From contig PLCN01000022.1 of NCBI GenBank assembly GCA_003134785.1, positions 124,001 through 188,000 of the forward strand: a stretch of DNA of 64,000 nucleotides, in the 5' to 3' direction. The translations under genes were made by a program, and so were the position numbers. Source of the stretch: Spartobacteria bacterium (GTDB lineage: Bacteria; Verrucomicrobiota; Verrucomicrobiia; Chthoniobacterales; UBA10450). The notes beneath the pieces are model-generated. The model was given only the letters and a program-made list of their open reading frames with translations. It searched no databases and had not been told where the DNA came from. Shown here piece after piece: positions 1,097 through 6,294 of the stretch (within the stretch, counting starts at the first letter, position 1; every line of letters starts with the position of its first letter).

Positions 1097-2133
1097 AGAC
1101 GAAGATTTTTGGCGAGCACGATGAGTCGACCATCGCGCAAATTGATCGGTGTGTGGCGGCGGGCGGCGAGCGCGGGGTCTTGTGCGCGGATGGTCACAAG
1201 GGGTATGCGCAGCCGATCGGAGGTGTCGTGGCTTACAAAGACAAGATCTCGCTTTCGGGAGTTGGGTTCGATATTGCGTGCGGGAATCTTGCCATCCGCA
1301 CGGACGCGATGCGTTCGCAAATCGCGCCGGCGATGGAAGAGATCATGGACGAGGTGGTGCGGGACATTTCTTTCGGCATCGGGAGGACGAGCAAGACGCG
1401 GATCGACCATGAGCTGTTTGATGATCCGGCGTGGAGCTTGCGGCCATTGGCGGAGCTGAAGCAAAGTGCGGCGGCGCAACTCGGCACGGTCGGAGGCGGC
1501 AATCATTATGTGGATATTTTTGCGGACGAGGCGGACCGCATTTGGGTCGGCGTGCATTTTGGATCGAGAGGACTCGGACATAAGACGGCCACTTATTTTC
1601 TGAAGGAGGCGGGAGGCAAGGATGGAATGGATGTGCCGCCTACGGTGGTTTTGGATGCGTCGGCGCTCGGGGAGAATTATGTCGCGGCAATGACGTTGGT
1701 AGGACGTTACGCGTACGCAGGTCGTGAGGCGGTGGCGCGGCATGTGGTGCGCGGGATCTTGCGGGCGCAAGTCGTCGAGGAAATTCACAACCATCACAAC
1801 TTCGCCTGGCGGGAGGACCATGAGGGCGAGCGATATTGGGTCGTTCGAAAAGGCGCGACGCCGGCGTTTCCTGGTCAGAAAGGTTTTATCGGCGGGAGCA
1901 TGGGCGATGACGCTGTCATTGTCGAAGGCGTCGATTCGTCGATCTCGCGCGACGCGCTTTTTTCTACGGTTCATGGCGCGGGACGAATCATGTCGCGCAC
2001 AGCCGCGAAAGGGCGATTCGTAAAGATCGAAGGCAAACGTGTTCGAACCGACGGTCTCGTTAGGCATGACGAGATGATGGGGTGGATTGCCGATAAAGGC
2101 GTTGTCTTGCGTGGCGGTAGTGTCCTAATTTGA
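1093..2133 (+). CDS. rtcB: RtcB-type RNA ligase, 5' portion, 3' end cut off by a transposon
   Basis: RtcB joins 2',3'-cyclic-phosphate or 3'-phosphate RNA ends to 5'-OH ends using GTP and Mn2+. Expected ligand residues are visible: D60 and C63 in GVGFDIACGN, H138 in GGGNHY, H155 in VGVHFGSRG, histidines in IHNHHNF (231-236), and the guanylylated histidine motif HGAGR at 294. The frame is normal to codon 341, then enters the transposon repeat at 2116 and stops after five foreign residues. The remaining 48 codons lie at 6295-6441. The residual 346-aa product lacks the C-terminal segment, including the DPYKD end whose lysine in the archaeal enzyme contacts the guanine, so it is probably inactive. 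Coupled to the upstream 2H phosphoesterase by an ATGA overlap. Confidence 0.93.
   Translation: MKTKIFGEHDESTIAQIDRCVAAGGERGVLCADGHKGYAQPIGGVVAYKDKISLSGVGFDIACGNLAIRTDAMRSQIAPAMEEIMDEVVRDISFGIGRTSKTRIDHELFDDPAWSLRPLAELKQSAAAQLGTVGGGNHYVDIFADEADRIWVGVHFGSRGLGHKTATYFLKEAGGKDGMDVPPTVVLDASALGENYVAAMTLVGRYAYAGREAVARHVVRGILRAQVVEEIHNHHNFAWREDHEGERYWVVRKGATPAFPGQKGFIGGSMGDDAVIVEGVDSSISRDALFSTVHGAGRIMSRTAAKGRFVKIEGKRVRTDGLVRHDEMMGWIADKGVVLRGGSVLI
2108..2115. repeat. Target-site duplication, left copy
   Basis: TGCGTGGC immediately precedes the left inverted repeat and is repeated directly after the right one at 6287-6294. An 8-bp duplication suits IS1-family transposition. Confidence 0.93.
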
Positions 2134-2135
2134 AA
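2116..2135 (+). repeat. Left terminal inverted repeat (IRL)
   Basis: Reads ggtagtgtcctaatttgaaa. Its reverse complement matches 6267-6286 with one mismatch and 5829-5848 with one different mismatch. Confidence 0.95.
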
Positions 2136-2176
2136 TAATTTCTTTTTTGTTCAAGGCGGTCTATCTTCTCAGACGG

Positions 2177-2368
2177 ATGAAGATCATGGTCTATCTGAAG
2201 TATGAGCGTGGCGACGAAGATCGCGACCCCTCTAGCACATTCTCTGAATATGACGCGCTACAGGCGTCAGTGAAGGACGGGTTTCTCCGAGTAGTCGAAA
2301 GGGTTGGCCAGCGAATCGTTCACGTCTCGCTAGATCAAATTGCGATGTGGACAGAAGAGGAAAAATAA
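2177..2368 (+). CDS. Small hypothetical protein (transposon passenger)
   Basis: A 63-aa acidic frame starting MKIMVYLKYERGDED and ending DQIAMWTEEEK, the first gene inside the left end of the transposon. I do not recognise the family. A start at 2147 would add ten residues, but the ATG at 2177 follows GACGG and gives a more normal N-terminus. It may be a small regulatory or passenger protein; coding status is moderately likely from composition and position. Confidence 0.45.
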   Translation: MKIMVYLKYERGDEDRDPSSTFSEYDALQASVKDGFLRVVERVGQRIVHVSLDQIAMWTEEEK

Positions 2369-2382
2369 AAGGAATTTAGCCG

Positions 2383-3291
2383 CTAAACTGCGGCGTCAAA
2401 CTCCAATTCTGATTCAGGAATCCCCGTCCCGGTAGAGGACTGGTAATACTTCACGCCCTCCTTCTCGCCCGCATAGCCGATTATCGTAACCGGCTTGTCG
2501 TGGTCTTTATTTCGCCAGATCGCCTGTTTTGGATATTCCGACCGAACAATTTTCTTTTTCCAGAGCTTGAGCGTGTCCAACAGGAGATCAAAGTCAGAAT
2601 CCGACATTCCAACAGGGATGGGCGCGTCGCCTATGTCCAGCGGAATTGGAAGGTAGCGAAGATTCGATGTCATTGGTGGAGATGATTGACTAAAGGCATT
2701 TGCAAGCGACCTGTATGGGGGCTTCGCAAGTTCAGCAGCAGAATTTGGTAGAATCTCGTCGTCATTTTGTTGCGTAATTTTATCAGAGTCGAGCAGCTTT
2801 GCAAACGCAATTGTATCCAAATATTGATCGATAAGAGCTTTTCCAGCCGGCTCAGTAAAATGGAGCTCGAAAACCAAATAATCATGAATGGCTCCCTCGG
2901 ATGCTCCATCCGCACCGAATTTTTGCCATAGTTTTGCGTGAATGCTGGGTAGAAGAGCAGCTTGCTTAATAAGCTGATCGCGATTCGGTGCGGATGGATT
3001 CAAAAGCGTAACTGCCAACTCGGTTAATTTAACCTTCCGCGTGTGGCCGCTGCCTTCAGCGTCAAAAAGCCCGTATTTCCTCATTGCGGAGATCGCTAGG
3101 GGGCCGGTGCTGCTCTTTGCGCCAAATCCCAAGTCTGTAATCGCACGAGATACTAAGACAGATTGTCGGCGATCATGCTCCCAGAACGTCTTTGCTAGTT
3201 CAAGGGCCTTGCTCAAACCGATTGATGGATAATTTGGGCTTCGCTCCCGCTGCTTCGTTCCTGGGGAATTTTGGGTCGTTTTATCAGCCAT
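2383..3291 (-). CDS. Winged-helix-like hypothetical protein (DUF5343-like), transposon passenger
   Basis: A 302-aa soluble protein from the ATG at 3291. Residues ~25-100 (YPSIGLSKALELAKTFWEHD, then MRKYGLFDAEG and VKLTELAVTLL) have the layout of a two-copy winged-helix DNA-binding region, resembling DUF5343-type proteins as far as I recall the family. The middle (~110-160) is helical and the C-terminus (~240-302) looks like a small separate domain. It is transcribed away from the RNA locus at 3370-3670 and could regulate the element; that role is inferred. An alternative start at 3351 adds 20 residues with no obvious ribosome site. Confidence 0.62.
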   Translation of the reverse strand: MADKTTQNSPGTKQRERSPNYPSIGLSKALELAKTFWEHDRRQSVLVSRAITDLGFGAKSSTGPLAISAMRKYGLFDAEGSGHTRKVKLTELAVTLLNPSAPNRDQLIKQAALLPSIHAKLWQKFGADGASEGAIHDYLVFELHFTEPAGKALIDQYLDTIAFAKLLDSDKITQQNDDEILPNSAAELAKPPYRSLANAFSQSSPPMTSNLRYLPIPLDIGDAPIPVGMSDSDFDLLLDTLKLWKKKIVRSEYPKQAIWRNKDHDKPVTIIGYAGEKEGVKYYQSSTGTGIPESELEFDAAV

Positions 3292-3369
3292 AGGACAGAA
3301 ATTAGACCAATATTCGAGCCTGTCTAGATAAAAGTTTATATAAAACTCCAAGCTTTACATAAAAGTGAG

Positions 3370-3400
3370 TTGACAGTCCTATCAGATCATTCGATATTAT
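3370..3400 (+). promoter_or_regulatory. Sigma-70-like promoter for the structured RNA / tRNA-like locus
   Basis: A perfect TTGACA at 3370-3375 is followed by TATTAT at 3395-3400 (19-bp spacer) or GATATT at 3393-3398 (17-bp spacer). No plus-strand protein frame begins downstream until 3948. The expected transcript would start near 3407 and run through the hairpins and the tRNA-like sequence. Confidence 0.6.
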
Positions 3401-3406
3401 AGTCGA

Positions 3407-3597
3407 AGGATTGATTAAGGGTGATGATCAGAAGACATGCGTGCCCCGTGGTTGCGATGCGCCGGACGGCGGGGCGTGGTAGGCCGGGAGAGTAAATCCT
3501 TTGGGAAGAGGCCCATTCTCTCCCGGCCAACAGGCGCTAAAAGAGGGGCGAAACGTCCAATCCGTTCGCGCCCTCCAGTCACACTTAAAGTCAATTT
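3407..3597 (+). ncRNA. Putative structured non-coding RNA with three successive hairpins
   Basis: Three stems lie in tandem between the promoter and the tRNA-like sequence: GCCCCG...CGGGGC near 3442-3476; a perfect 11-bp stem ggccgggagag (3482-3492) with ctctcccggcc (3518-3528), enclosing a smaller TGGG/CCCA stem; and AGGGGCGAA paired with TTCGCGCCCT near 3543-3574 with one bulged base. No plausible protein is encoded. I do not recognise the RNA class. It may be the leader of the tRNA-like gene or an independent RNA of the transposon. Exact ends are not determined. Confidence 0.5.
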
Positions 3598-3670
3598 GGG
3601 GCCGTAGGTTTAACGGTAGAACCAGCAGGATTTACACCGGCAAGTGCGGGTCCAACTCCCGTCGGCTCCA
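3598..3670 (+). tRNA. tRNA-like gene, apparent anticodon UUA (ochre-reading), inside transposon
   Basis: A 73-nt cloverleaf can be drawn. The acceptor GGGGCCG pairs with CGGCTCC (3663-3669) and the discriminator is A3670. The D arm is GGTTT/GAACC around a canonical AACGGTA loop. The anticodon arm is GCAGG-ATTTACA-CCGGC with one A/G mismatch, a 4-nt variable loop follows, and the T arm is GCGGG-TCCAACT-CCCGT. The loop places TTA at 34-36, which would read UAA. C at 37 and C at 55 are unusual, so it may be a tRNA mimic or a decaying gene. CCA is not encoded beyond the acceptor. Confidence 0.55.
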
Positions 3671-3673
3671 TCT

Positions 3674-3693
3674 GACTTTCTGTGCTACATAAT
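3674..3693 (-). repeat. 20-bp repeat, third copy, inverted
   Basis: Reverse complement reads attatgtagcacagaaagtc, matching the two direct copies at 3880 and 3913 in 17 of 20 positions or nearly so (core TGTAGCACA.AAAGTC). It lies 3 bp after the tRNA-like gene and just past the stop of the RHH-like gene, so that gene is bracketed by inverted copies. Confidence 0.75.
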
Positions 3694-3699
3694 CTCATA

Positions 3700-3924
3700 T
3701 CACGCTGCATCAATCAATGTCTTTCTCACCCAAACCGGCAATTTGTTTCCGGCTCGTTTTGCCGCTGCCTCAAATCGACGGAGTTCATCCTGGGAAACGC
3801 GAGCACGGAGAACGTGTTCCTTAGCGGCCCCAGCCGGCAGTTTTGGGCGACCGAGGATTACGGTTTTTCTAGATTTTCTTTTCTGTAGCACAAAAAGTCT
3901 TGACCTAATATATTTCTGTAGCAC
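3700..3924 (-). CDS. Ribbon-helix-helix-like DNA-binding protein (MobC/antitoxin type)
   Basis: A 74-aa basic protein. The core GRPKLPAGAAKEHVLRARVS, then DELRRFEAAAKRAGN and LPVWVRKTLIDAA, has the strand-helix-helix layout of ribbon-helix-helix repressors and MobC-like relaxosome proteins. The start is GTG at 3924; a second in-frame GTG at 3891 would give 63 residues. It is divergent from the transposase, and the 20-bp repeats lie across the shared promoter. A role as repressor of the transposase is therefore likely but inferred. Confidence 0.62.
   Translation of the reverse strand: MLQKYIRSRLFVLQKRKSRKTVILGRPKLPAGAAKEHVLRARVSQDELRRFEAAAKRAGNKLPVWVRKTLIDAA
3880..3899 (+). repeat. 20-bp direct repeat copy 1, possible operator
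   Basis: tttctgtagcacaaaaagtc, ending exactly where the putative -35 TTGACC (3900-3905) of the transposase begins. Spaced 33 bp (about three helical turns) from copy 2. Confidence 0.75.
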
Positions 3925-3927
3925 AAT
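3900..3927 (+). promoter_or_regulatory. Putative transposase promoter overlapped by operators
   Basis: TTGACC at 3900-3905, a 16-bp spacer, then CACAAT at 3922-3927 inside repeat copy 2. The transposase ATG follows at 3948. A repressor on the repeats would cover both promoter boxes. Confidence 0.45.
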
Positions 3928-3932
3928 AAGTC
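3913..3932 (+). repeat. 20-bp direct repeat copy 2, possible operator
   Basis: tttctgtagcacaataagtc, 19/20 identical to copy 1 at 3880-3899. Confidence 0.75.
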
Positions 3933-3947
3933 GAGAAAAGAAATCTT

Positions 3948-4772
3948 ATGGCAAACATCCTCAGCAAAGAAAAACAGATCGCGGTGATTAGTGCACTGGC
4001 AGAGGGAAATTCAATCCGATCAATCGAGCGCATGACGGAAATCCATCGCGATACGATCATGCGCCTTGGTGTGCGCGTCGGCGAAACCTGCCACCAAATC
4101 CTCGATCAGAAAATGCGTGGATTGAATTGCTCTCGCATTGAGATTGATGAGTTGTGGGGATTCATCGGCAAGAAAAAGTTTCATGCTAATCGCGCAGATC
4201 GCGCTGAGGGACTTGGGGACGTTTGGACTTTCCTGAGCATTGACCCCGTTACAAAAATCATTCCTTCCTACGTTGTGGGAAAGCGCGACCGATATCATGC
4301 AACGGTGTTCTTGGAAGATTTGGCATCACGTCTCAACAATCGGATTCAGCTTTCGAGTGATGCAATGAACGCATATCCCGATTCAGTCGAACGAGCGTTT
4401 GGCGCTGACATTGATTACGGACAGATCGTAAAGGAGTATTCATCCCCGACCGTGGAAGACCAGCGTAAGTACAGCCCCGCGACGCTGAGCGCCGTGTACA
4501 AGACCGCGATTGTCGGCGACCCGAATCCTGACTTGGTTTGCACGTCGTACATCGAAAGGGCGAACCTCACGATGCGGACACATTGCAAACGTCTCGCTCG
4601 TCTCACGCTGGCGTTCTCGAAAAAACTCCACAACTTCAAGGCCGCAATCGCGCTCAACGTCGCGTATTACAATCTTGTGAAAACCCACGGCACGCTCCGT
4701 TGCACGCCCGCAATGGCCGCTGGCGTCGAGAGCAGTGCGTGGACGATTGCCGATCTAGTCGATGCCTCCTAA
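3948..4772 (+). CDS. IS1-family-like DDE transposase
   Basis: A 274-aa single-frame transposase. Residues ~8-45 form a helix-turn-helix (LAEGNSIRSIERMTEIHRDT). Likely DDE residues are D67 in IDELWGFIGKK, D138 in LSSDAMNAYPDSV and E203 in YIERANLTMR, followed by the basic LARLTLAFSKKLHN segment seen in IS1-type enzymes. Unlike classical IS1 there is no separate InsA zinc-finger frame and no frameshift. It would act on the 20-bp ends at 2116 and 6267. Its last codons overlap the start of the next gene (ATG at 4762), implying coupled translation. Confidence 0.9.
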   Translation: MANILSKEKQIAVISALAEGNSIRSIERMTEIHRDTIMRLGVRVGETCHQILDQKMRGLNCSRIEIDELWGFIGKKKFHANRADRAEGLGDVWTFLSIDPVTKIIPSYVVGKRDRYHATVFLEDLASRLNNRIQLSSDAMNAYPDSVERAFGADIDYGQIVKEYSSPTVEDQRKYSPATLSAVYKTAIVGDPNPDLVCTSYIERANLTMRTHCKRLARLTLAFSKKLHNFKAAIALNVAYYNLVKTHGTLRCTPAMAAGVESSAWTIADLVDAS

Positions 4773-5076
4773 GAACGTCCAGAGCCTACAGAGTGCGATC
4801 AAAGCGATGCATGGATGCGGTTCGCGATATGTAGAATCTGTCCCGGTGCATGAAGTGTTTCATGGACAGACTGCGTGGCAAGGAACGGTCGAAGTTTTCG
4901 AGTTGATCGGCCACGTGAAAGCGAAGCGGGCATACACGTGGCAATATGACGAAGGCAAGGACACAAAAACGATCTCTGTTCTTGAAATTCCACCTGTAAA
5001 CTCTCCTCAAAGTGCTGTGAGAGTGGCAATTGCATCCAAAGGGAAAAATTCGTACGAAAGGGACAAAAATGCTTGA
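4762..5076 (+). CDS. Hypothetical protein coupled to transposase
   Basis: A 104-aa protein whose ATG lies 11 bp inside the transposase gene. Features seen: YVESVPVHEVFHGQTAWQG, GHVKAKRAYTW, then SVLEIPPVNSPQSAVRVAI. I recall similar ~100-aa proteins of unknown function in proteobacterial genomes, often near mobile DNA, but cannot name a domain. The overlap suggests co-expression with the transposase; a role as transposition accessory or an independent passenger is equally possible. Confidence 0.65.
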   Translation: MPPKNVQSLQSAIKAMHGCGSRYVESVPVHEVFHGQTAWQGTVEVFELIGHVKAKRAYTWQYDEGKDTKTISVLEIPPVNSPQSAVRVAIASKGKNSYERDKNA

Positions 5077-5143
5077 ACAAGGCGTACGCAATGCTAGTCT
5101 AATGCTTACCTTTAACCGCTACGCCAGTAGGCTGGCACACTCT

Positions 5144-5180
5144 AAACCCCTGAGTCGCTTCGGCGGCTTGGGGGTTTTTG
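5144..5180 (+). terminator. Rho-independent terminator after the transposase operon
   Basis: Stem AACCCC / GGGGTT plus AGTCGC / GCGGCT closed by a TTCG tetraloop, followed by a T-rich run on the plus strand. It lies between the transposase operon and the NYN gene, separating their transcription. Confidence 0.85.
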
Positions 5181-5189
5181 TTTTGCCCC

Positions 5190-5828
5190 ATGAAAGTAGC
5201 AATATTGATTGACGGAGAGTGGTTCAGAATTGCTCTATCCGAACGGCTCGGAGCGGCCCTGAAACCGCATGGCGTAACCGCAGAAGTCGTCCATAAGAAC
5301 GCGCTGCTTGCTGTTCAAAAAGGAGAGTCCGTTACTCGAATCTTTTATTACGATTCCGTGCCGCACGTGGGGAAAACCAGAAATCCAATTAGCAAGAAAT
5401 CTGTTCCCTGCATTAGCCCAGAGAAGGTTGACGCGCGCCATCGCTTTTTCCACGAACTTGGACAGATGCCGCTGATTGCGCTCAGGCGCGGGGTCGTCAA
5501 GCCCAGAGGATGGGTACTGCGAATGGCCTACGTTAAAGAAATGCTAAAGGGCGGCAAGGCACGGCCGTTAACCGCCGATGATGTTACCCTCTCGATGACA
5601 CAAAAAGGGGTTGATATGCGTATCGGGATTGATGTCGCCACATTGTCCCTCAAGAGGCAGGTGGATCGAATAATCCTGATTTCTGGCGATCTGGATATGA
5701 TTCCGGCTATGAAATTGGCAAGACGTGAAGGTGTTCAGGTGGCAATGGTCCAATTAGATAGAAGAAAAATTTCAACTGAACTCGTCGAGGATGCTGATTT
5801 TATTCGCACCATCACTCCGATTCTCTGA
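5190..5828 (+). CDS. NYN-domain (PIN-like, DUF88/LabA-type) putative ribonuclease
   Basis: A 212-aa protein starting MKVAILIDGEWF. The NYN/PIN-like acidic residues appear in order: D8 in the first strand, D142/D148 in KGVDMRIGIDVATLS, and D167/D169 in LISGDLDMIPA. DUF88/NYN proteins are metal-dependent RNA nucleases or regulators; RNA targets here are unknown. The ATG at 5190 lies just after the terminator, leaving no clear promoter in between, so it may depend on read-through or on the terminator region. Its TGA directly touches the internal inverted repeat at 5829, marking it as an original passenger of the element. Confidence 0.85.
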   Translation: MKVAILIDGEWFRIALSERLGAALKPHGVTAEVVHKNALLAVQKGESVTRIFYYDSVPHVGKTRNPISKKSVPCISPEKVDARHRFFHELGQMPLIALRRGVVKPRGWVLRMAYVKEMLKGGKARPLTADDVTLSMTQKGVDMRIGIDVATLSLKRQVDRIILISGDLDMIPAMKLARREGVQVAMVQLDRRKISTELVEDADFIRTITPIL

Positions 5829-5848
5829 TTTCAAATTAAGACACTACC
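5829..5848 (-). repeat. Internal second copy of the right inverted repeat
   Basis: tttcaaattaagacactacc; its reverse complement matches IRL 2116-2135 in 19 of 20 positions, as well as the outermost IRR does. It begins at the base after the NYN stop codon, so a shorter element 2116-5848 is structurally complete. Confidence 0.92.
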
Positions 5849-5930
5849 TGTTTTGTCCCTCTTTCCCTGGCAGCGAGTCAAAATGATTACGACTTTAGCT
5901 ACGACTTTCTGACTGCCTCTCGCCTGAATC

Positions 5931-6257
5931 GTGGCTAAGGTCTTTAAATTCCGAAGTCGGTTTGTCGATTTTTTGGTCTATGTCACGTTCGATATGGATG
6001 CTTACCGCCGAGGCGAAATCCCTAGCAATCAGCCAACCGTGCTTTGCGATGGGAAGCCTACAGATGTAATTCTTCCCGCTTACAAAGCATGGATGCACTC
6101 CGTCATGTCGGAGATAGCAAAGCGGATCGACGAAGAAATTGTGTACTCTCTGCCCATTACGCTTGAGCCGAATCGCAATACCCCAGCGAGCAATTCTGAG
6201 GTTTGGATATACTATCCAGATGGCAACTATGAGCGTGCCAAAGAACCGCCGAATTGA
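5931..6257 (+). CDS. Hypothetical protein in the outer module of the transposon
   Basis: A 108-aa frame from GTG at 5931 (or 87 aa from ATG 5994), with sequence such as VYVTFDMDAYRRGEIPSNQP and VWIYYPDGNYERAKEPPN. No family recognised. It is the only frame of sensible composition between the internal repeat (5848) and the outermost repeat (6267), and it ends 10 bp before that repeat, like the NYN gene before its own. No strong ribosome site precedes either start. Confidence 0.45.
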   Translation: MAKVFKFRSRFVDFLVYVTFDMDAYRRGEIPSNQPTVLCDGKPTDVILPAYKAWMHSVMSEIAKRIDEEIVYSLPITLEPNRNTPASNSEVWIYYPDGNYERAKEPPN

Positions 6258-6266
6258 ATCGAGCGC

Positions 6267-6286
6267 TTTCAAATTAGGACACGACC
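6267..6286 (-). repeat. Right terminal inverted repeat (IRR)
   Basis: tttcaaattaggacacgacc, inverted match to IRL with one mismatch, followed directly by the TGCGTGGC duplication. Confidence 0.95.
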
Positions 6287-6294
6287 TGCGTGGC
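6287..6294. repeat. Target-site duplication, right copy
   Basis: TGCGTGGC, identical to 2108-2115. Confidence 0.93.

Follow-up and report, generated by a model that had tools for sequence, protein, structure and literature searches.

The window, that is, the whole stretch of 64,000 nucleotides that was analysed, carries an IS1-type element inserted in the host gene rtcB. The parts of this element and the sequences flanking it are as follows:

1093-2115, + strand: interrupted host gene rtcB, 5' part (remainder from 6295)
2108-2115: target-site duplication (TSD), left copy TGCGTGGC, identical to 6287-6294
2116-2135, + strand: left terminal inverted repeat GGTAGTGTCCTAATTTGAAA, 0 mismatches to the family consensus
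2147-2368, + strand: 73-aa ORF, possible left cargo, no family match
2383-3351, - strand: 322-aa ORF, left cargo; element L057 has a relative of it (45% identity) in the equivalent position
3597-3672, + strand: tRNA-like gene, anticodon loop ATTTACA, conserved in some relatives
3700-3924, - strand: 74-aa ribbon-helix-helix protein, NikA-like by a weak match, conserved core in many relatives
3948-4772, + strand: IS1-type DDE transposase, 274 aa, Pfam DDE_Tnp_IS1 above cut-off
4762-5076, + strand: 104-aa conserved core protein, overlapping the transposase stop
5178-5828, + strand: predicted NYN-domain nuclease, right cargo (Pfam NYN; PADLOC NYN)
5829-5848, - strand: inner right end TTTCAAATTAAGACACTACC, now internal, without flanking TSD
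5849-6266, + strand: extra outer segment, GC 0.486
5931-6257, + strand: 108-aa ORF in the outer segment, almost without homologues
6267-6286, - strand: outer right end TTTCAAATTAGGACACGACC, used in the last transposition
6287-6294: TSD, right copy TGCGTGGC

The strongest new fact of this analysis is the exact 8-bp TSD TGCGTGGC that brackets 2116-6286, which was not part of the initial annotation. Removal of the element together with one TSD copy produced a continuous open RtcB frame of 389 aa, and this protein was intact in all congeners searched (7/7, 85-90% identity). Since the duplication surrounds 2116-6286 and the joined flanks restore rtcB, the last jump involved one unit of 4171 bp, for which the ends used were the left one, at 2116, and the outer of the two right ones, at 6286. 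The element is single-copy in its genome. The initial annotation had considered 2116-5848 to be already complete: this segment does have the anatomy of a complete element, but no target duplication was found to flank it and no copy bounded at 5848 was found elsewhere. Target duplications, looked for at both right ends, were thus restricted to the outer one.

A scan at three mismatches or fewer detected exactly three family-end sites in the window, at 2116-2135, 5829-5848 and 6267-6286. At the same threshold, 100 shuffles of the window gave 0 matches, on which ground a chance origin of the inner end, the reading that the initial annotation had set against its own, was rejected; the rest of the 4.4-Mb genome contained three weaker matches only, with 2-3 mismatches. 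The inner and outer right ends have the same direction and each agree with the family consensus at 19/20 positions. As had been claimed from the first reading, the inner repeat matches the left end as well as the outer one does: the pairing between 5828-5848 and 2116-2136 covers 21 nt (95%), and that between the outer end and the left end covers 20 nt (95%). The one-base variant of the inner end (GGTAGTGTCT...) was also found in L094, a TSD-bounded unit, and in L069 (TSD 7/8), and its occurrence at the ends of these two elements indicates that the inner end is a functional-type sequence. Position 4 of the end was variable in the TSD-bounded unit L073 as well, and the one-base variants of the inner and outer ends are both tolerated in the family. 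These comparisons support the assignment of the inner repeat as a genuine family end. Because both right ends agree with the consensus at 19/20 and no other right-end site exists in the window, the outer end can be taken as a true family end, unlike a weakly matching fortuitous alternative end. The inner right end, although real, was bypassed in the last jump and was carried inside the element as a passenger.

The inner end is preceded by the tetranucleotide CTGA, which also stands before the right ends of L056, L061, L068, L174 and L166, whereas the outer end is devoid of it, a pattern that weakly favors the inner end as the former right end of the element. No NYN-tail remnants were found at the other right ends sharing CTGA.

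The transposase scored 35.1 bits against Pfam PF03400 (cut-off 24.1) and 59.4 bits against the NCBIfam transpos_IS1 equivalog, below the curated cut-off of 100; it appears to be a divergent IS1-type relative, outside the NCBIfam IS1 equivalog. The right cargo lies tightly against the ends, in line with the initial annotation, which had both passenger genes stopping within 10 bp of an end: the stop codon of the NYN gene (5826-5828) directly adjoins the inner end, at a distance of 0 bp, and that of the 108-aa ORF is located 9 bp before the outer end. Another NYN gene, 53-55% identical to that of the window, was found in L144 (10905-11949) just downstream of a different IS1-type transposase remnant, so that NYN genes are associated with such elements more than once. 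None of the NYN relatives found was bounded by the ends described here.

A few further observations concern the interior of the element. The tRNA-like gene also occurs between the left cargo and the ribbon-helix-helix gene at the equivalent place in L057, L055 and L066; its anticodon is UUA (UAA-reading) or a related loop in several relatives, and compensating changes were seen in the acceptor stem while the loop TTTACAC/TATACAC was kept. It may serve as a suppressor, as a processing signal or in some other role. The overlap of the 104-aa gene with the transposase stop is found in nearly every family element, and the gene is retained in several transposase-less derivatives. Additionally, a strong terminator-like hairpin followed by a T run is located at 5125-5182, in the interval that separates the 104-aa gene from the NYN gene; its resemblance to Rfam entries is weak and below threshold.

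The GC content of the outer segment (0.486) was compared with that of the element (0.494) and of the flanks (0.57), and by this measure the segment looks like mobile DNA rather than like this chromosome. Its 108-aa ORF had the best codon score of the six frames (0.127, the others reaching 0.026 or lower) and is probably a real gene, a status that stays at probable because homologues are almost absent: no close relative was detected in 213 genomes of the order, 387 from the phylum, plasmids and viral contigs. Likewise, no other copy of segment 5849-6266 was found in a search that included plasmids and viral contigs, nor any copy ending at 6286 with or without it. Regarding the claim that 5849-6266 is an added module using a second right end, the TSD around the outer unit speaks for it, but copies with and without the module, which would allow a comparison, were not encountered.

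Elements of the IS1 family are characterized by target duplications of 8-9 bp and by inverted ends starting with GGT. Both features were found here, as an 8-bp TSD and GGTAGTGTCC ends in 27 units. These 27 units, all with an exact 8-bp TSD, ranged from 32 bp to 4.4 kb and a near full-length transposase was present in 9 of them, the cargo being exchangeable. The 20-bp ends were common to relatives in the same order (55-80% identity) and some viral contigs carried elements with the same ends; the reversed-pattern control of the end search gave near zero matches. The family core consists of the transposase and the 104-aa protein, a candidate core transposition partner, with the ribbon-helix-helix gene in most elements. 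Cargo on either side of this core differs among relatives, and their homology to the window element ends near the 3' end of the 104-aa gene, with different cargo beyond. From the translations, this cargo presumably includes AIPR-like, DNA-methylase-like and retropepsin-like proteins, a Panacea-like and small-protein pair, and others. In L128, which has no right cargo, the right end directly follows the 104-aa gene, and in complete relatives the right cargo often stops 0-12 bp from the right end. In L055, L101, L099 and L138, the terminal cargo often stops a few bases from the end or uses the TAG of the end as its stop.

In a relative, L064, two family elements follow one another head to tail; an identical 8-bp target separates the two and is present again behind the second, in the order left end at 3155, right-like end at 3581, CGGCCCGC, left end at 3590, right end at 4246, CGGCCCGC. 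The ends are the same as those of the window element, but L064 consists of two units adjacent at one 8-bp target and still has its two left ends, along with an inner right end that is degraded, while the window element is without a second left end and moved as a whole, as one unit. The window element, L064, L100 and L059 all have same-direction ends 350-440 bp apart, and the segments between these ends are unrelated save for the ends themselves.

The window element is an IS1-type cargo element, or 'transporter IS' (tIS), in the sense of the concept proposed for IS1 family cargo elements (PMC9330008). It shares with them a DDE_Tnp_IS1 transposase, short terminal inverted repeats starting with GGT, an 8-bp TSD and passengers located between the transposase and the ends; as expected of a tIS, passengers that are presumably dispensable for transposition are carried in one IS-type unit, different cargo being found on the same core. 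In contrast to these elements, it has conserved extra core genes (the 104-aa and ribbon-helix-helix genes, and sometimes the tRNA-like one) and a third, internal end. The second system to be compared is that of ISEcp1 units (family IS1380), which retain a bypassed right end internally and make use of a new one (PMC12589106). Here too, the element bypassed its own right end, gained adjacent genes and is surrounded by a TSD at the level of the larger unit. However, the transposase is of IS1 type instead of IS1380 type and the TSD is 8 bp long as against 5 bp in ISEcp1. Units of several sizes, as with an ISEcp1 donor, were not found, since one copy exists in the genome and none in relatives.

Any account of the origin of this structure has to start from its demonstrated parts, namely the three ends, the TSD of the outer unit, the target site that is intact and empty in relatives, and the existence of a family of such ends. 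We hold, with moderate confidence, that the structure was made by the joining of two family elements, A and the right part of B. A complete element A (2116-5848, with the NYN gene) would have come to lie inside or directly beside an element B; the left end of A would then have paired with the right end of B, and A would have moved into rtcB together with the right part of B, which spans 5849-6286 and holds the 108-aa ORF. Under these premises A would once have moved alone, the outer segment would come from a second family element, and both right ends may still be usable. The near perfection of the outer end and the head-to-tail pair of L064 argue for two family elements rather than for a fortuitous alternative end, and this pair at one target indicates that the required neighboring arrangement does occur. 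Complete relatives also have the same kind of right terminus as A, with a cargo gene that often stops close to the end. IS-mediated adjacent deletion (PMC11708052) could also bring the right part of a second element beside 5848. On the other side, neither a free copy of A ending at 5848 nor an uninterrupted B was found. Beside 5848 there was no trace of the TSD of A or of the left end of B, no site with five or fewer mismatches in 15 being present just 3' of it at the place where L064 has one. The case is also single, a comparable extra internal end having been found in 0 of the 26 other TSD-bounded units. The stepwise gene capture put forward in the initial annotation is therefore plausible as a single event, but it is neither demonstrated nor a habit of the family.

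Two other explanations keep some probability, since the searches gave no intermediate copy. It is possible, though unlikely, that capture proceeded as in ISEcp1, the left end having paired with a lone end-like sequence downstream in unrelated DNA and thereby added the 108-aa module. The structure is the same as that of an ISEcp1 unit, with one left end, a bypassed right end and an outer right end with TSD (PMC12589106), but the alternative ends of ISEcp1 are described as imperfect in that report, whereas the outer end of the window element is a near-perfect family end (19/20) and not a degenerate one. Furthermore, lone matches of such quality are practically absent by chance and the composition of the segment is unlike this chromosome. 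Slightly more doubtful is an order of events in which the outer end is the original one and the NYN gene was added internally with the inner end, for instance through insertion of another element's right part or through recombination with it. That relatives differ in their cargo at the site from the 104-aa gene to the right end would fit this order, as would the NYN gene of L144, whose location beside a different transposase remnant implies that NYN genes move between elements; the slightly better match between the inner and left ends, which extends to 21 nt, and the CTGA pattern at the right ends point the other way, and none of the other units offered a precedent for an internal insertion of this kind. 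An inner end that matches by chance, or that was produced by faulty assembly, is very improbable: the structure is found in one genome only, but the shuffles gave no match, the 21-nt match sits precisely at the stop of a gene, a placement also seen at other right ends, the segment is not a collapsed repeat but unique sequence, and the frames are intact throughout the element, with a clean TSD and an empty site.

Returning to the joining of two family elements, its extension into a general ratchet, by which IS1-type cargo transposons would gain whole terminal modules through pairing of one member's left end with the far right end of another each time two of them are close neighbors, must be regarded as a speculative proposal with a low probability. 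If it were true, a bypassed end kept inside would be a record of the order of events and, either right end being still usable, one element could move as two sizes. The gain of passenger genes by simple insertion sequences is mostly inferred after the fact. In the window element, the inner end is kept intact and the TSD proves that the outer end was used, which provides a natural construct for testing directly how an IS1-type element would gain genes by switching ends. A principle known from ISEcp1 is matched here in a different transposase family and in a little-studied bacterial group, with a weight that is limited because this is a single instance.

Among the smallest units, TSD-flanked remnants of 32-81 bp were observed in six loci, each consisting of a left end and a right end joined back to back:

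L072, 3532-3564: back-to-back end remnant
L094, 2716-2747: back-to-back end remnant
L093, 2967-3004: back-to-back end remnant
L073, 2498-2537: back-to-back end remnant
L176, 3392-3424: back-to-back end remnant
L169, 1544-1624: back-to-back end remnant

Such remnants resemble the footprints left when an element excises almost precisely, the interior having presumably been lost between short direct repeats within the ends.
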